Below are positions 29,789 through 39,373 of a stretch of 64,000 bases of DNA, in pieces. The notes under the pieces were generated by a model. The model worked only from the letters and a program-made list of their open reading frames with translations, was not told the DNA's origin and searched no databases. The first letter of the stretch is position 1. Each line of letters starts with the position of its first letter. The stretch spans positions 62,001 through 126,000 of the forward strand of contig JARKPR010000012.1 in NCBI GenBank assembly GCA_029975165.1, given 5' to 3'. The position numbers and the translations under genes were made by a program. This stretch comes from Selenomonadales bacterium. Its GTDB lineage: Bacteria > Bacillota > Negativicutes > Sporomusales > UBA7701.

Positions 29789-29849
29789 CCGGTCGCCGCT
29801 CTCCCGTGACCCGCATATCATAAACTAGATGTGCCGGGGAGGTGGAGCG

Positions 29850-30857
29850 ATGAACGGGATAGATTGGCTGGCTTTATATAAAGAACTGGCCGGGTTCGAT
29901 AACGTGGTCGGCGTCGGACGGGGCCACAAGCTGGTACGAGGGGAGAGTACCGGCCGCGAGGCGGCGGTGGTGCTGGTCAGTAAGAAATACCCGCGTGGCG
30001 ACCTGCGCCGGACGGCGCTCGTGCCGAAAAGGATCGGCGAGGTGGTGAGCGACGTCATCGAAGTGGGCGATATCCGCCTCCTGGGCGTGGACGAGCGGAC
30101 CGGCACGCAACGGCCGGCCCGGCCGGGGGTGAGTATCGGCCACTACAAGGTTTCCGCCGGGACGTTCGGGGCGGTGGTACGCGACCGCACGAGCGGCGAG
30201 ACGCTCATCCTCTCCAACAACCATGTTCTGGCCAACTTGAGCGACGGCGCCGACGACCGGGCGGCGGTGGGCGACCCTGTCCTACAGCCCGGCCTGTACG
30301 ACGGCGGTGAAAAGGACACGGCCGTGATCGGCCATCTGCGGCGGTTCGTGCCCATCCGCCGTCAGGCGATAATCCCGTTCTGCCGCATCGCCCGCCTGTT
30401 CGAGACGCTTTTGAACGGCGCCATCGGCGCGGTCAAACCGCAGTACCGCGTCCAGGTGTGGCGGGAGAACGAATTGCCCAATATGGTCGACTGTGCGGTG
30501 GCCGCGCCGCTCTCGCCCGAACTCGTGGCCGCCGACATCCTTGAAGTGGGGCCGGTGGCCGGCGTCAAAGAAGCGGCGCCGGGTATGGCCATCAAGAAGA
30601 GCGGCCGCAGTTCCGGTTTGACCGCCAGCTTTGTGCTTGCCACCGACGTCACGCTCAAGGTCGGCATGAGCTACCGGGAATACGGTCTGTTCGCCGACCA
30701 GATCCTGGCCGGGCCGATGAGCAAGCCCGGCGACAGCGGCTCGCTGGTGCTGGCCGAGGACAACTGCGCCGTGGGGCTGCTGTTCGCCGGCTCCGACCAG
30801 GCAACGATGCTATCGCCGATAGGGCGGGTACTGGACGCCCTGAATATTACCTTCTAA
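29850..30857 (+). CDS. Trypsin-like serine peptidase, Nal1-like
   Basis: A 335-residue protein with a chymotrypsin-fold triad: H125 in LSNNHVLA, D214 in MVDCAVA and S296 in KPGDSGSLV. About 100 residues precede the protease core and may act as a pro- or regulatory domain. An insertion of about 60 residues lies between His and Asp. There is no signal peptide, so it probably acts in the cytosol or the forespore; trypsin-like enzymes in this form are less usual than secreted or HtrA types. ATG at 29850 is preferred because GGGGAGGTGGAG precedes it. The substrate is unknown. Confidence 0.78.
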   Translation: MNGIDWLALYKELAGFDNVVGVGRGHKLVRGESTGREAAVVLVSKKYPRGDLRRTALVPKRIGEVVSDVIEVGDIRLLGVDERTGTQRPARPGVSIGHYKVSAGTFGAVVRDRTSGETLILSNNHVLANLSDGADDRAAVGDPVLQPGLYDGGEKDTAVIGHLRRFVPIRRQAIIPFCRIARLFETLLNGAIGAVKPQYRVQVWRENELPNMVDCAVAAPLSPELVAADILEVGPVAGVKEAAPGMAIKKSGRSSGLTASFVLATDVTLKVGMSYREYGLFADQILAGPMSKPGDSGSLVLAEDNCAVGLLFAGSDQATMLSPIGRVLDALNITF

Positions 30858-33865: not shown

Positions 33866-36289
33866 ATGCCTGCTGATACCAGGGAGCAAAAATTTTTTAC
33901 CGCAACCTTGAAAATAGGCGGCATGTCCTGTGCCGCCTGCGCAGCCAGGATCGAGAAGGGTTTGGCCAAATTGCCGGGCGTGGACAAAGCGGCCGTGAAT
34001 TTGGCCACCGAAAAGGCCACCGTGGTTTACGACCCGGCGAAAATAAGCGTTAAAGAGATCGCCGCCAAAGTGGAAGACCTGGGCTATCAGATTATCAAAG
34101 ACCGGGCCGATGTGAAGATTGCCGGCATGAGCTGCGCGGCCTGCGCCAGCCGCATCGAAAAGGGGCTGCAGGGCTTGCCGGGCGTTTATAAGGCCGCGGT
34201 CAATTTTGCCGCCGAGAAAGCGGCGGTGGAATATAATCCGGCCGAGGTGACCTTCGGGCAGATCAAGGAATTGATACGGAAACTGGGCTACGAAGCCCAT
34301 GATATAGCCGACGCCGGGGATGTAGACCGGGAAAGAAAAGCCCGGGAAGAGGAGGTCGGGAAGCAGCGCTTCCGGTTGATGCTGTCCGCCGCGCTCTCTT
34401 TCCCCCTGCTTGGGGCGATGGTCCTGCATTTCTTCGGCATCATGGGGCCGGTCGGCGACGTTTTGATGAATCCTTATTTGCAATTGGCGCTGGCAACGCC
34501 CGTGCAATTCGTAGCCGGCTGGCAGTTCTACCGCGGGGCTTATACCGCCTTGCGCAACGGCAGCGCCAATATGGATGTGCTGGTGGCGCTGGGAACTTCG
34601 GCGGCGTACTTCTTCAGCCTGGTGAACGTGGCAACCGGCTCGCCGGATTTGTATTTCGAGACGTCGGCGATTCTTATCACCCTTATCATTTTGGGGAAAC
34701 TGCTGGAGGCCAACGCCAAAGGCCGCACCTCCGAGGCGATCAAGGCGTTGATGGGCCTGCAGGCCAAAACGGCCCGCATCGTCCGTGACGGGCAGGAAAC
34801 CGACATCCCGATCGAGGAAGTTGCCGTCGGTGATGTCATCGTCGTCCGGCCGGGGGAAAAAATCCCCGTGGACGGGGTGATCGCCGAAGGAACCTCGACG
34901 GTCGACGAGTCGATGCTGACCGGCGAGAGCATCCCGGTCGACAAGAAAACCGGCGACGAGGTCGTCGGCGCCACCATCAACAAGTTCGGCACCTTCAAAT
35001 TCGAGGCCACCAAAGTCGGCAAGGACACCGCCCTGGCCCAGATAATCAAAATCGTCGAGGACGCCCAAGGTTCAAAAGCGCCCATTCAACGCTTTGCCGA
35101 TGTGGTGTCCGGGTATTTCGTGCCGGCGGTCGTCGGGGTGGCCGCGCTTACCTTTCTGGCGTGGTATTTTGTCTTCGATGCCGGCAATTTTACCCGGGCG
35201 CTCGTCAACTTTACGGCGGTGCTGGTGATCGCTTGTCCCTGCGCGCTGGGCCTGGCCACGCCGACCTCGATCATGGTCGGTACAGGCAAAGGCGCCGAGA
35301 GCGGCATCCTTATCAAGGGCGCGGAGCATCTGGAGAACGCCCACCGGCTGACCACGATCGTGCTGGACAAGACCGGCACCATCACCAAAGGCGAGCCGGA
35401 GGTAACGGACATTGTGGCCCTCGGCGGACAAAACGAAGACGAACTGCTCCAAATAGCCGTGCGGGCCGAAAAAAACTCCGAGCACCCGCTAGGCCAGGCA
35501 GTGGTCAAATACGGCCAGTCCCAAGCCGTGGCGCCGGCCGACCCCGATTCCTTCGCAGCCATTCCCGGCCGCGGCGTGGCAGCAACAATCGACGGGCGGA
35601 CCGTGCTGGTGGGCACGCGCAAGCTGCTGCGGGAAAACGGCATTGCCATCGACGGCGTCATCGGCCAGGTCGAAGGACTGGAGCAGCAGGGCAAGACCGT
35701 AATGCTCATGGCCGTGGACGGCCGGCCGGCAGGGCTTATCGCGGTGGCCGACACGGTGAAGGAGCATTCGGCCGCCGCCGTGGCCGAGCTGCAGCAGATG
35801 GGGATCGAGGTATGGATGATAACCGGCGACAACGAACGGACGGCCCAGGCCATCGCCGGCCAGGTGGGAATAAAGAGCGTCATGGCCGAGGTGCTGCCGG
35901 AGTATAAGGCGGAGAAGGTCGAGTCGCTCAAGCGCGAAGGAAAAATTGTCGCCATGGTCGGCGACGGCATCAACGACGCGCCGGCGCTCGCCACCGCGGA
36001 CGTGGGGTTCGCCATCGGCACCGGCACCGACGTGGCGATTGAAGCCGCCGATATTACCCTGATGCGCGGCGACCTCAGGGGGATCGTCGCGGCTATCAAG
36101 CTGAGCAGGGCGACGATGCGCAACATCAAGCAGAACCTTTTCTGGGCGCTAGTATATAACGCCCTGGGAATCCCGATCGCCGCCAGCGGCTTTCTGTCGC
36201 CCGTCCTGGCCGGCGCCGCCATGGCTTTCAGCTCGGTATCCGTGGTAAGCAACGCCTTGCGGCTGAAAGGCTTCGATCCTTACCGTTAG
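33866..36289 (+). CDS. copA: Cu(I)-exporting P-type ATPase
   Basis: An 807-residue P1B-ATPase. Two N-terminal heavy-metal domains carry GMSCAAC at residues 22-25 and 90-93. Eight membrane helices follow, with the Cu-binding CPC in [14 protein letters not shown], the phosphorylation motif DKTGT, the P1B HP in SEHPLG, and the hinge [10 protein letters not shown]. It exports Cu(I) (or Ag(I)) from the cytoplasm with ATP. ATG at 33866 follows GAGGGGAGG. It is the second gene of the csoR operon; no copZ chaperone gene is present, and the paired N-terminal domains may serve that role. Confidence 0.95.
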
Positions 36290-36369
36290 GCGCCGCCGCT
36301 AAAGGGGCTGCCGTCATGGCGGCCCCGGTGCTTTCGGGAAAATCGTCACGACCTTTTCATCCTTCCTGC

Positions 36370-36398
36370 TTCCTGGCAATTTGCCAGGAATTTTTTTT
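36370..36398 (+). terminator. Rho-independent terminator after copA
   Basis: TTCCTGGCA and TGCCAGGAA pair tightly and are followed by T8. A second GC-rich hairpin (GGGGCTGCC / GGCGGCCCC, 36304-36326) lies upstream without a T-tract. Confidence 0.9.
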
Positions 36399-36483
36399 GG
36401 GGCCGATAGGAAAAGGGTGTCGATGCATCGAAAATATATATTACATCACAAGAATATATCTATAATAAGACAAGCGAGGAGCA

Positions 36484-37278
36484 ATGGCAGCTGAACAAGA
36501 AATCGTCGCCGGGGTTGACGCCGGTTCGACGGCGATAAAGGTGACGTTATTCGACGGCACGGCGATGGCGAACTATCTGGAACCGGCCGGCTGGAATCCC
36601 CGCGAAACCGCAACCGTCCTGTTGTCCAAGGCGGCCGGGCTGCGGGGCGTGAAGGCCGGGGGGCTGGCGAGGGTGTATGGCACCGGTTACGGCCGGGTGG
36701 GGCTCGGCTTCCTGGCGAAGGCGGTGACGGAGATCACCTGCCATGCCCGGGGGGCGGCGTACATGGCGCCGGAGGCCCGCACCGTCATCGACATCGGCGG
36801 GCAGGACGTCAAAGCGATCAGGATCGACGGAGCAGGGCGCGTGCGCGATTTCGTGATGAACGACAAGTGCGCGGCCGGCACGGGGCGCTTCCTGCAGGTG
36901 ATGGCCGGGGCCCTCGGCATGGACCTGGGGACGATGGCGGCGCTGCCCGCCGACGGGGACGCCTGTCCGATCAACGCCATGTGCACAGTGTTCGCGGAGT
37001 CGGAGGTCATCGGGCTGCTCAACCGGGGCACGCCGCGGGAGACGATCGTGGCCGGCCTGTACAAGTCGATCGCCGGCAGGGTGGCCGCCATGGCCGCCCG
37101 GATAACCCCCTGTCCGCCTGTCGTCCTGACCGGCGGCGTCGCCCTGCATCAAGCCCTGCACAAGGCTCTGGAGAACGAGCTGGGACTTAAGGTGACAATC
37201 CCCGGAGAGGCGGTGTTCGCCGGCTCGATCGGCGCGGCATTGCTGGCCTGGGAAGATCTGCGCAGAAAAGGAGAATGA
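36484..37278 (+). CDS. ATPase activator of a 2-hydroxyacyl-CoA dehydratase or double-cubane protein
   Basis: A 264-residue ASKHA-fold ATPase of the BadF/HgdC type. ATP motifs are GVDAGSTAIK, VIDIGGQDVK and LTGGVAL. C129 in NDKCAAGTGRF and C167 in AMCTVFAESE are the two ligands that, in the dimer, hold one [4Fe-4S] cluster between the subunits. It drives a low-potential electron into its partner using ATP. It precedes the partner gene by 4 bases, as in the yjiL-yjiM pair and in the double-cubane reductase of Carboxydothermus. ATG at 36484 follows GCGAGGAGC. Confidence 0.88.
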   Translation: MAAEQEIVAGVDAGSTAIKVTLFDGTAMANYLEPAGWNPRETATVLLSKAAGLRGVKAGGLARVYGTGYGRVGLGFLAKAVTEITCHARGAAYMAPEARTVIDIGGQDVKAIRIDGAGRVRDFVMNDKCAAGTGRFLQVMAGALGMDLGTMAALPADGDACPINAMCTVFAESEVIGLLNRGTPRETIVAGLYKSIAGRVAAMAARITPCPPVVLTGGVALHQALHKALENELGLKVTIPGEAVFAGSIGAALLAWEDLRRKGE

Positions 37279-37282
37279 CGAG

Positions 37283-38437
37283 ATGACTTTATCACGTCCC
37301 CAGGCCATGGCCCATTTCGACATGGCCATACCCCACGCCGCCACCTCGCTGAAGCAGCTCAAGGAGAACGGCACAAAGGTAGTCGGCTACTACTGTATGT
37401 TCGCGCCCCAGGAGGTGGCCCTGGCGGCCGGCGCCCAGCCGGTGGCCCTGTGCGCGACCAAGGAGGAGCCGATCGCCGACGGCGAAAAGACGCTGCCGCG
37501 CAACTTCTGTCCGCTGATCAAATCGTCGTACGGCTTCGCGGTCACCGACAAGTGTCCGTTTTTCCTGCATTCCGACCTCATCGTCGGCGAGACGACCTGC
37601 GACGGCAAAAAGAAGATGTTCGAGCTGATGGCGAAATTCAAGCCGGTGCATGTCATGAACCTGCCGCAGGGCTATGCCGCCGAAGAGGATAAGGCCTATT
37701 GGCTGGCGGCGGTCGAGAAACTGAAGAAATATCTCGAAACAAGCCTGGACGTAGAGATTACCGACGCGAAACTGGCCGCCGCCATTAAGGAACGCAACGC
37801 CGAGCGGCGGCTGATTCAGGAATTGGCCGACCTGACCAAGCACGATCCGGTGCCCTTGTCCGGCCAGGATATGCTGAAAGTTCTCTGGGCCCACAATTTC
37901 GTATTCGACCGCCAGGAGTTCGCGGCCCAGGTGCGGGAACTGGTCGGCGAACTGAAGGAACAGGCTGCCAGGGGCGAGGGGGCGCTGCCCAAGGGGGCCA
38001 AGCGGATCGTCGTCACCGGCGTCCCCACCGGCATTGGCGCCGAGAAGGTGCTGAAGATCATCGAGGACTGCGGGGCGGCGGTGGTTTATATCGAAAACTG
38101 TTCCGGCATGAAGCAGTTCGTCACCCTGGTGGACGAGGACAAACCGGCGCTGGCGGCGATCGCCGACAAATACCTGGGCACCCATTGCTCGTGTATGAGC
38201 CCCAACCCGCGGCGAATGGAGCTGGTGGCCGAGGTCGCCCGCGACTGGCGGGCCGACGGCGTCGTCGACGTCGTCTGGCAGGGGTGCCACACTTACAACG
38301 TCGAGGGCCGGGTGCTGAAGGATTACCTGCGCGACAACGGCAACGTCCCGTACCTGCAGATCGAGACCGACTACTCCCAGGGCGACGTGGAACAGATCAA
38401 GACCAGAGTCCAGGCTTTCCTGGAGATGATGGGCTAG
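37283..38437 (+). CDS. Double-cubane-cluster-type protein (2-hydroxyacyl-CoA dehydratase D family, YjiM-like)
   Basis: A 384-residue single-subunit member of the 2-hydroxyacyl-CoA dehydratase D family. Ten cysteines are seen (38, 57, 76, 91, 106, 263, 273, 302, 304, 335), enough for six ligands of an [8Fe-9S] double-cubane cluster as described for Carboxydothermus DCCP. True dehydratases need two different subunits and CoA-transferase genes; neither is here. So a small-molecule reductase of DCCP type is more likely. It receives electrons from the ATPase encoded just upstream. ATG follows AAAAGGAGA. The substrate is unknown. Confidence 0.8.
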   Translation: MTLSRPQAMAHFDMAIPHAATSLKQLKENGTKVVGYYCMFAPQEVALAAGAQPVALCATKEEPIADGEKTLPRNFCPLIKSSYGFAVTDKCPFFLHSDLIVGETTCDGKKKMFELMAKFKPVHVMNLPQGYAAEEDKAYWLAAVEKLKKYLETSLDVEITDAKLAAAIKERNAERRLIQELADLTKHDPVPLSGQDMLKVLWAHNFVFDRQEFAAQVRELVGELKEQAARGEGALPKGAKRIVVTGVPTGIGAEKVLKIIEDCGAAVVYIENCSGMKQFVTLVDEDKPALAAIADKYLGTHCSCMSPNPRRMELVAEVARDWRADGVVDVVWQGCHTYNVEGRVLKDYLRDNGNVPYLQIETDYSQGDVEQIKTRVQAFLEMMG

Positions 38438-38490
38438 TTTGCGGAGAAACCGCGACCGGTATGCGGCCCGGTAAAATGGAAAAAGAGCAT

Positions 38491-38527
38491 GGCAAGGGGC
38501 CGGATATATAATGTCCGGCCCTTTGCC
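38491..38527 (+). terminator. Hairpin after the double-cubane pair
   Basis: GGCAAGGGGCCGGA and GTCCGGCCCTTTGCC form a long, nearly perfect stem. There is no following T-tract, so the termination strength is uncertain. Confidence 0.55.
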
Positions 38528-38573
38528 GTCGCCGGGCGGCGGTGGACGGCTAAAATATACAAAAAAATCATAT

Positions 38574-38609
38574 TTTCTGCACAACTTCTTCATAATTTGT
38601 TGTTAAAGT
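38574..38609 (+). promoter_or_regulatory. Response-regulator-type repeats and -10, promoter of the two-component operon
   Basis: TTTCTGCACAA (38574-38584) and CTTCTTCATAA (38585-38595) are tandem 11-mers, followed by 8 bases and TAAAGT (38604-38609). The layout is the same as at 32532-32578 and 40563-40609. It implies that the response regulator activates its own gene. Confidence 0.6.
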
Positions 38610-38680
38610 AAAGGTATATCAAGGAAATGTTTTCGCCGCCGGGTGTGATAATATATAGGGGAGACGGAGGAGGAACCGCC

Positions 38681-39373
38681 ATGGCGCACCAGACGGTGTT
38701 CATTGTCGACGACGACGTCAAGATCACGAAACTGCTGAAATCCTACTTCGATAGGGAAGGCTTCATAACTTACCTGGCCCACGAGGGCGGCAACGCCGTC
38801 CGGGCCATACGGGACAAAAATCCCGATCTGGTTATCCTCGACCTGATGCTGCCCGGCATGGACGGGTGGGAGATTTGCCGCAAGCTCCGCAAGGAGAGCG
38901 AGGTGCCGATCATCATGCTCACCGCCCGCGACGAAGAGACGGACCGCGTCATCGGCCTGGAAATGGGGGCCGACGACTATGTGGCCAAGCCGTTCAGCCC
39001 GCGGGAGGTGGTCGCCCGGGCCAAAGCCATTTTGCGCCGGACCCAGAAGACGGCCGCCAAGGCCGAGCCGATCCATGTGGGCGACCTGGTTATCGACGCC
39101 GAACGGCATTTGGTCAAGAAGGGCAACACGGTGCTCGATCTGACGCCGACGGAATTCAAGATCCTCGAGCAGCTTGCCACAAACGCCGGCCGGGTATTCA
39201 CCCGGCTGCAGATCGTCGAACGGGTGCAGGGGTATTCGTTCGAAGGGTACGAAAGGACCGTCGACGCCCATATGAAGAATCTGCGCCGGAAAATTGAGGA
39301 CAACCCGAAAGAACCGCGCTACATTCTCACGGTATACGGGGTGGGGTACCGGTTTGCCGGTGACTGCGAATGA
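38681..39373 (+). CDS. OmpR-family response regulator, CusR-like
   Basis: A 230-residue regulator. Receiver domain 1-120 has the acidic pair in FIVDDDV, the phosphorylated D54 in VILDLMLPGMDG, T in MLTAR and K in YVAKPFSP. A winged-helix output domain (about 130-228) follows with DLTPTEFKIL, YERTVDAHMKNLRRKI and VYGVGYRF. It overlaps the kinase gene by 4 bases. ATG at 38681 has GGAGGAGG upstream. Its likely targets are the three promoters that share tandem 11-bp repeats, including the copper/silver-type efflux operon downstream. Confidence 0.9.
   Translation: MAHQTVFIVDDDVKITKLLKSYFDREGFITYLAHEGGNAVRAIRDKNPDLVILDLMLPGMDGWEICRKLRKESEVPIIMLTARDEETDRVIGLEMGADDYVAKPFSPREVVARAKAILRRTQKTAAKAEPIHVGDLVIDAERHLVKKGNTVLDLTPTEFKILEQLATNAGRVFTRLQIVERVQGYSFEGYERTVDAHMKNLRRKIEDNPKEPRYILTVYGVGYRFAGDCE

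Follow-up and report, generated by a model that had tools for sequence, protein, structure and literature searches.

Gene pair and genomic setting

The window, by which we mean the whole stretch of 64,000 nucleotides that was analysed here, contains two genes separated by four bases (37279-37282), with that of a candidate reductase (activase) placed first and that of a candidate double-cubane cluster protein (DCCP) placed second. An earlier note on this DNA had described an ASKHA ATPase with two cluster cysteines, C129 and C167, followed after a 4-base gap by a single 384-residue dehydratase-D-like protein with ten cysteines, and this description held in all its parts. The activase matched both profiles of its family, PF01869 as well as TIGR00241 (cut-off 125 bits), and its C129 and C167 align with cysteines of chain 7yyl_E; these two residues we take to be the predicted ligands of a bridging [4Fe-4S] cluster. 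The larger protein belongs to the HGD-D family (PF06050, 395 bits), and its ten cysteines are found at positions 38, 57, 76, 91, 106, 263, 273, 302, 304 and 335. Upstream of the pair lie genes for a metal-sensitive repressor of the CsoR type and a copper P-type ATPase, and downstream lie genes for a response regulator, a histidine kinase, an outer-membrane efflux protein (OEP) and proteins of the CusB and CusA/CzcA types. Elsewhere in the window, positions 29829-30854 encode a 342-aa protein whose match to the Nal1 C-terminal domain is borderline (26.1 bits, at cut-off).

Table 1. Coordinates, strand and basis of assignment of the features at the DCCP locus
Feature	Position in window	Strand	Basis
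Terminator-like hairpin after copA and before the pair, nine pairs followed by eight T	36370..36390	+	Pattern scan
DCCP reductase/activase (ASKHA ATPase), 264 aa	36484..37278	+	TIGR00241 236 bits; PF01869 184 bits; 7yyl_E, E 9e-54
Double-cubane cluster protein (DCCP), 384 aa	37283..38437	+	NF040772 510 bits; 6eno/7yyl, E about 1e-83; trees
Codon C38 to codon C335, six predicted [8Fe-9S] ligands	37394..38287	+	Alignment to BzdN ligands

When the window's own genome was searched with PF06050, five matches were obtained, namely the DCCP gene itself, one gene on contig C4 and three weak matches on contig C98, and the contig of the pair yielded no further HGD-D gene. At the locus one activase thus adjoins a lone HGD-D gene, and the claim of the earlier note that dehydratase partners are absent was borne out for this contig with regard to a second catalytic subunit. 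The match on contig C4 belongs to another pair (L002:38-1797), of an HGD-D-like protein (325 aa) and an activase (261 aa); no NCBIfam model matched the former at 1e-20, and the remaining five genomes of the family set also gave weak NF040772 matches of a similar kind. The DCCP gene of the window is overlapped by a longer antisense ORF, and a greedy longest-ORF caller missed this DCCP as well as those of L059, L072 and L074, for which reason the locus counts given below were taken from six-frame HMM searches.

Assignment to the double-cubane family

We found that the 384-residue protein scored well above the cut-off of the NCBIfam double-cubane equivalog NF040772 (350 bits) and below those of the HadC (107 bits, cut-off 700), BzdN (76 bits, cut-off 454) and BcrC (65 bits, cut-off 421) equivalogs. 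The nearest solved chains were those of 7yyl and 6eno, followed by HadC (E 9e-20) and BzdN (E 3e-18). In a tree of 131 rows, built by a quick method with SH-aLRT support only, the window was placed in an 18-row DCCP clade (support 99) together with Heliorestis, Methanoregula, UBA5324, other members of its genus and one of two DCCP types that occur in its order. With segments of 6eno, BzdN and HadC added, a FastTree analysis gave a set of 113 rows (0.993) that included the window and 6eno and excluded BzdN and HadC; within that set 6eno fell in a separate 9-row group (0.95) and not in the subclade of the window. In a working group of 17 rows, consisting of the 18-row clade minus two duplicates and plus L026, the reductase gene came first in 15, and the other two had no reductase within 300 bp on the same strand.

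The protein of the window is thereby a member of a known family of oxygen-sensitive iron-sulfur enzymes, although not of the subclade of 6eno. Because the equivalog score lies over its cut-off, the nearest chains are 6eno and 7yyl, the trees agree and the six ligand positions are kept (see below), we regard it as highly probable, as judged from sequence, that the pair encodes a DCCP with its own reductase, a judgement that also takes in the incidental copper context discussed below. The likeness to the DCCP/DCCP-R arrangement of Carboxydothermus hydrogenoformans (6eno, 7yyl) that had been pointed out before was consequently supported at the level of the family and not at that of the subclade. 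That system likewise combines an HGD-D protein with an activase partner, and its DCCP shares with the window the six ligands, C57, C91 and the CxC motif at 302/304, at 39.1% identity over 376 columns, whereas its chain carries about 34 extra N-terminal residues. The enterobacterial pair of the YjiM/YjiL type, for which Kluyvera locus L091 served as stand-in, falls under the same NCBIfam equivalog (E. coli being over its cut-off) and also has an adjacent activase; its DCCP is 46% identical to that of the window and lies in another clade, of 40 rows.

Cysteine ligands of the predicted cluster

The [8Fe-9S] ligands of BzdN are given as Cys36/73/100/263/293/327 (PMC11971306), and these residues align with C38, C76, C106, C273, C302 and C335 of the window protein, which are therefore the predicted ligands, assigned via BzdN at 23% identity and not from a DCCP structure. 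All six are also present in the 6eno segment, and they were complete in 107 of 109 DCCP rows (106 of the 107 distinct rows, counting the 6eno segment). The exceptions, L137 and L168, are one and the same sequence, gapped at C335 in a stretch that ends at a contig end. Among 21 outgroup rows, labelled as two-subunit-like by tree position and neighbours only and including the second HGD-D-like gene of the family (L010 and L016), the six were complete in six (BzdN, L148, L142, L151, L139 and L141) and incomplete in 15. Since BzdN and five nearby rows keep all six, the six ligands must be seen as necessary for a DCCP and not as sufficient. A four-row group adjoining that of 6eno had the six ligands in three of its members and lacked C91.

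The ligand set suggested in the earlier note, which had called for a check of six conserved cysteines, thus survived with regard to C38, C76, C106, C302 and C335, whereas it had missed C273 and included two residues that were here rejected as ligands. One of these was C263, being a cysteine in only 26 of the 109 DCCP rows, and the other was C91, the surrounding stretch of which is missing from all 13 HadC/BzdN-like rows. Together with C57, C91 is a cysteine in 109/109 DCCP rows and in 0/21 outgroup rows, BzdN included, and both residues are non-ligands by the BzdN alignment.

YedF and other neighbours of DCCP genes

In two other genomes of the genus (G001 and G002) the reductase and DCCP genes are followed by yedF, the gene of a sulfurtransferase-like protein, as the third gene of an operon, and all three YedF proteins concerned scored over the TIGR03527 cut-off, with G001 having two such operons (L017 and L018) about 12 kb apart. 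The DCCPs of these operons are 86% identical to that of the window and the reductase again comes first, whereas YedF is missing from that place in the window, and CopA, CsoR and Cus genes are missing near the operons. Within 8 kb of the DCCP gene of the window, no YedF, DUF3343 or SelD was found.

For the wider comparison we used 80 loci (the best 80 of 558) and, for the window's order, a set of 18 loci drawn from 15 genomes, with one genome common to both sets. Since the neighbour HMMs were built from clusters in the same loci, the following counts, all within 3 kb of DCCP, are descriptive only. YedF was found in 9/80 loci (near full length in 8) and in 8/18 order loci, DUF3343 in 8/80 and 5/18, cysteine desulfurase in 8/80 and 5/18, SelD in 7/80 and 0/18, and an MtaA-like methyltransferase in 11/80 and 0/18. 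The SelD count leaves out L065, which is HypE (466 bits), and the SelD profile also gave weak matches in L058 and L060 (37-41 bits). In 61 of 99 loci, with up to 8 kb of sequence, no selenium or methyltransferase marker was seen.

Locus L165 of the order carries YedE, DUF3343, YedF, cysteine desulfurase, DUF3343, DCCP and reductase in one run, the first six of which were checked by curated models; on reading, L162 resembles this run, and the markers are also present in L156, L157 and L163. The DCCPs of these five loci represent the other type of the order and fall in the 40-row clade with Kluyvera, that of L165 being 42% identical to the window DCCP. In the 17-row subclade of the window, YedF within 3 kb was confined to L017, L018 and L019 (full) and L022 (DsrE part). 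In L022, from Heliorestis, the DCCP pair stands in a run (L022:2112-12083) that by reading only also includes an apparent hybrid-cluster protein and an apparent sulfite/nitrite-reductase-like gene, and the DsrE-domain gene lies 2.5 kb downstream.

Co-occurrence of DCCP, YedF and SelD in genomes

Using curated NCBIfam models on 101 genomes drawn evenly from the phylum, with the window's genome included, we counted 35 with DCCP, 62 with YedF and 72 with SelD, in each case over cut-off. YedF was present in all 35 DCCP genomes compared with 27 of the 66 others (Fisher p 1.7e-10), and with one genome per family (70 families) the median draw gave 24/24 versus 19/46 (p 2e-7). As the YedF match was C-terminal only (profile 80-194) in seven of the 35 DCCP genomes, the comparison was also made for full-length YedF, giving 28/35 versus 23/66 (p 1.3e-5). 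Thirteen genomes had no DCCP over cut-off and a weaker match at E < 1e-20, a limit of our own choice, and YedF was found in seven of them. Shared ancestry and anaerobic life inflate co-occurrence of this kind, an effect that is lessened, and not abolished, by sampling one genome per family and by the comparison with these 13 genomes. In the order of the window (28 genomes), YedF was found in 15/15 versus 11/13 genomes, which is near ceiling and not significant (p 0.21).

SelD was also more frequent with DCCP (34/35 versus 38/66 genomes, p 7e-6). Among the genomes having SelD, YedF was present in 34/34 with DCCP versus 25/38 without (p 8e-5), whereas among the genomes having YedF, SelD showed no association with DCCP (34/35 versus 25/27, p 0.40).

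A YedF paralog in a genome without detected SelD

Of the 35 genomes with DCCP, that of the window alone gave no SelD match over cut-off (125 bits; best score 90.5 bits), a lack that, at 96.3% completeness, may reflect an assembly gap; this also applies to G003, at 87%. The only full-length YedF found in the window's genome is encoded on contig C4, away from DCCP. In a YedF tree it fell among those YedFs of the genus that adjoin DCCP (98/91), apart from those that adjoin SelD (97/93), with SelD adjacency read from coordinates. The numbers of copies over cut-off of DCCP and of the DCCP-type YedF were 1/1, 2/2, 1/1, 0/0 and 0/0 in G000 to G004, respectively, and those of SelD and the SelD-type YedF were 0/0, 1/1, 1/1, 0/0 and 1/1. 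These YedF rows of the genus retain both of the cysteine motifs of the protein. The C4 yedF gene lies about 120 bp upstream of a gene for a 711-aa molybdopterin oxidoreductase (L170:6573-9411), which resembles formate dehydrogenase alpha and PhsA, below their cut-offs.

Proposed reaction and possible substrates

In the mechanism that we propose, reduced ferredoxin or flavodoxin would load the [4Fe-4S] cluster held between two reductase subunits by C129 and C167 of each, whereupon ATP hydrolysis by the reductase would force a very-low-potential electron onto the predicted [8Fe-9S] double-cubane of DCCP, which, once charged, would reduce a small molecule. Here the family, the pairing and the ligand residues are given by sequence, and the cluster, the homodimer and the ATP-driven transfer are taken from the literature or from general background on the family. 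As judged by gene neighbourhoods and co-occurrence, the likeliest partner is YedF and therefore the likeliest substrate a small sulfur compound (a selenium compound in relatives), which we put forward as a tentative proposal that still has less than an even chance of being right. The ATP-driven reductase may then work with YedF on such a sulfur (or selenium) compound. A more specific version is unlikely in our estimate: DCCP, driven by ATP, would act together with a YedF paralog dedicated to it in the reductive release or transfer of sulfur from a small compound, independently of selenium, with the YedF of the genus split into SelD-linked and DCCP-linked forms and the window's genome keeping only the latter.

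Two other readings of the YedF association, each of which we consider rather unlikely, have to be weighed against this proposal. According to the first, DCCP serves selenium metabolism only, for example by reductive release of selenide for selenophosphate synthesis. This would suit the frequency of SelD in DCCP genomes, the true SelD genes near seven of the best 80 loci, the L165 run with its YedE and its DUF3343 (PF11823, now named Se/S carrier) and the type I mlp clusters with dicubane protein, which a preprint ties to methyl-selenium use, linking the dicubane cluster protein itself provisionally to selenium metabolism (PMC10418091). It fits less well with DCCP adding no SelD association among YedF genomes, with its still going with YedF among SelD genomes and with the window's genome having DCCP without SelD over cut-off, although at its completeness the latter is not proof.

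The second has YedF supplying sulfur for the building of the nine-sulfide cluster of DCCP, the true substrate of which would then be unrelated to sulfur. Such a role would explain why YedF co-occurs with DCCP across genomes, and it agrees with the cysteine desulfurase genes near DCCP in both locus sets as well as with the bridging sulfide that the cluster has beyond its two cubanes (PMC11971306). However, E. coli has DCCP and no YedF over cut-off, and it served as production host for BzdN, a protein with this type of cluster (PMC11971306), so that YedF is not strictly required for such a cluster.

The copper neighbourhood

The earlier note had suggested that the position of the pair between csoR-copA and the Cus-like system may be chance, and this caution was supported by the comparisons made here. 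The terminator-like hairpin after copA is a consensus match only, with three such matches found versus 2.7 expected in 36200-38800 on both strands, and it has the longest stem and T-run of the three. DCCP was over cut-off in three of the five genomes of the genus. In the two without it, G003 and G004, there were CusB orthologues (85% and 74% identity) in complete runs of regulator, kinase, OEP, CusB and CusA, and these 15-kb stretches gave no match to DCCP, reductase, CopA or CsoR; in the DCCP-bearing genomes G001 and G002, identity to CusB was no higher than 29-30% in the best matches. The CopA, CsoR, CusA and CusB models matched in none of the 80 loci (the best 80 of 558; 36 of the 80 with full 8-kb flanks), and linkage of DCCP with these genes is thus not conserved.

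It is very unlikely, in our view, that the pair belongs to a response to copper or another metal, which would explain its position, on the same strand, between csoR-copA and the two-component/Cus cluster. Some loci have features in line with this, namely L164 of the order, where an RND pump pair, of a membrane fusion protein and an AcrB/CusA-like protein, lies directly upstream of the reductase (L164:2751-8047); L017, where a response regulator, a kinase, a SHOCT protein and a 106-aa HMA-like protein (20.6 bits, under the cut-off of 24.8) are encoded directly upstream of it (L017:2723-6220); and L076, where an HMA-like ORF lies some 2 kb away from DCCP on the opposite strand. Against it stand the hairpin separating copA from the pair, the occurrence of Cus without DCCP and of DCCP with only distant CusB matches in the genus, the 0/80 loci, and E. 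coli yjiM, listed in PMC12724342 as one of the genes of the Fnr regulon that are repressed when Cu plus Ni are present. Most likely, the nearby copper genes are independent units and chance placement is the simplest reading, with a link to metals being unlikely.

Relation to known systems and significance

That the DCCP could instead be a lone subunit, its partner missing, of either a class I benzoyl-CoA reductase or a two-subunit 2-hydroxyacyl-CoA dehydratase is suggested by its Pfam family and by BzdN (8s02) keeping all six ligands, and we reject it as exceedingly improbable on account of the HadC and BzdN scores below cut-off, the tree position with DCCPs, the C91 segment missing from HadC/BzdN-like rows and the single HGD-D gene found on the contig. 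BzdN also differs in forming a heterodimer with BzdO (PMC11971306).

Structures of iron-sulfur assemblies with more than four irons exist for few families, among them double-cubane proteins and nitrogenases (PMC12491067). DCCPs reduce acetylene, azide and hydrazine and not N2, with these reductions being reported as ATP-dependent for the Carboxydothermus DCCP, according to PMC11971306 and PMC7306483, the former of which states that the physiological role is unknown. A selenium link of DCCP is known in outline from the mlp clusters and from Lin et al. 2015 (PMC5322559), who for one species list unspecified 2-hydroxyglutaryl-CoA dehydratase subunits and an activase among the proteins that STRING connects with YedE, YedF, DUF3343 and a LysR gene. 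This was the only paper that combined hydroxyglutaryl-CoA dehydratase and YedF in the literature searched. In that same literature, a scope outside which most subscription papers fall, no joint mention of YedF with a double-cubane protein or with an acyl-CoA dehydratase activase was found, nor were the DCCP-YedF co-occurrence and the DCCP-type YedF paralog found stated.

YedF as a frequent companion, with a paralog that follows DCCP and not SelD, narrows the search for the role of DCCP to sulfur/selenium chemistry and provides a named partner protein for tests of DCCP, for which the window's genome, seemingly having DCCP and YedF without SelD, is a useful case. If the proposed sulfur system of DCCP and YedF is true, it would reveal the class of physiological substrates on which this nitrogenase-like cofactor acts.
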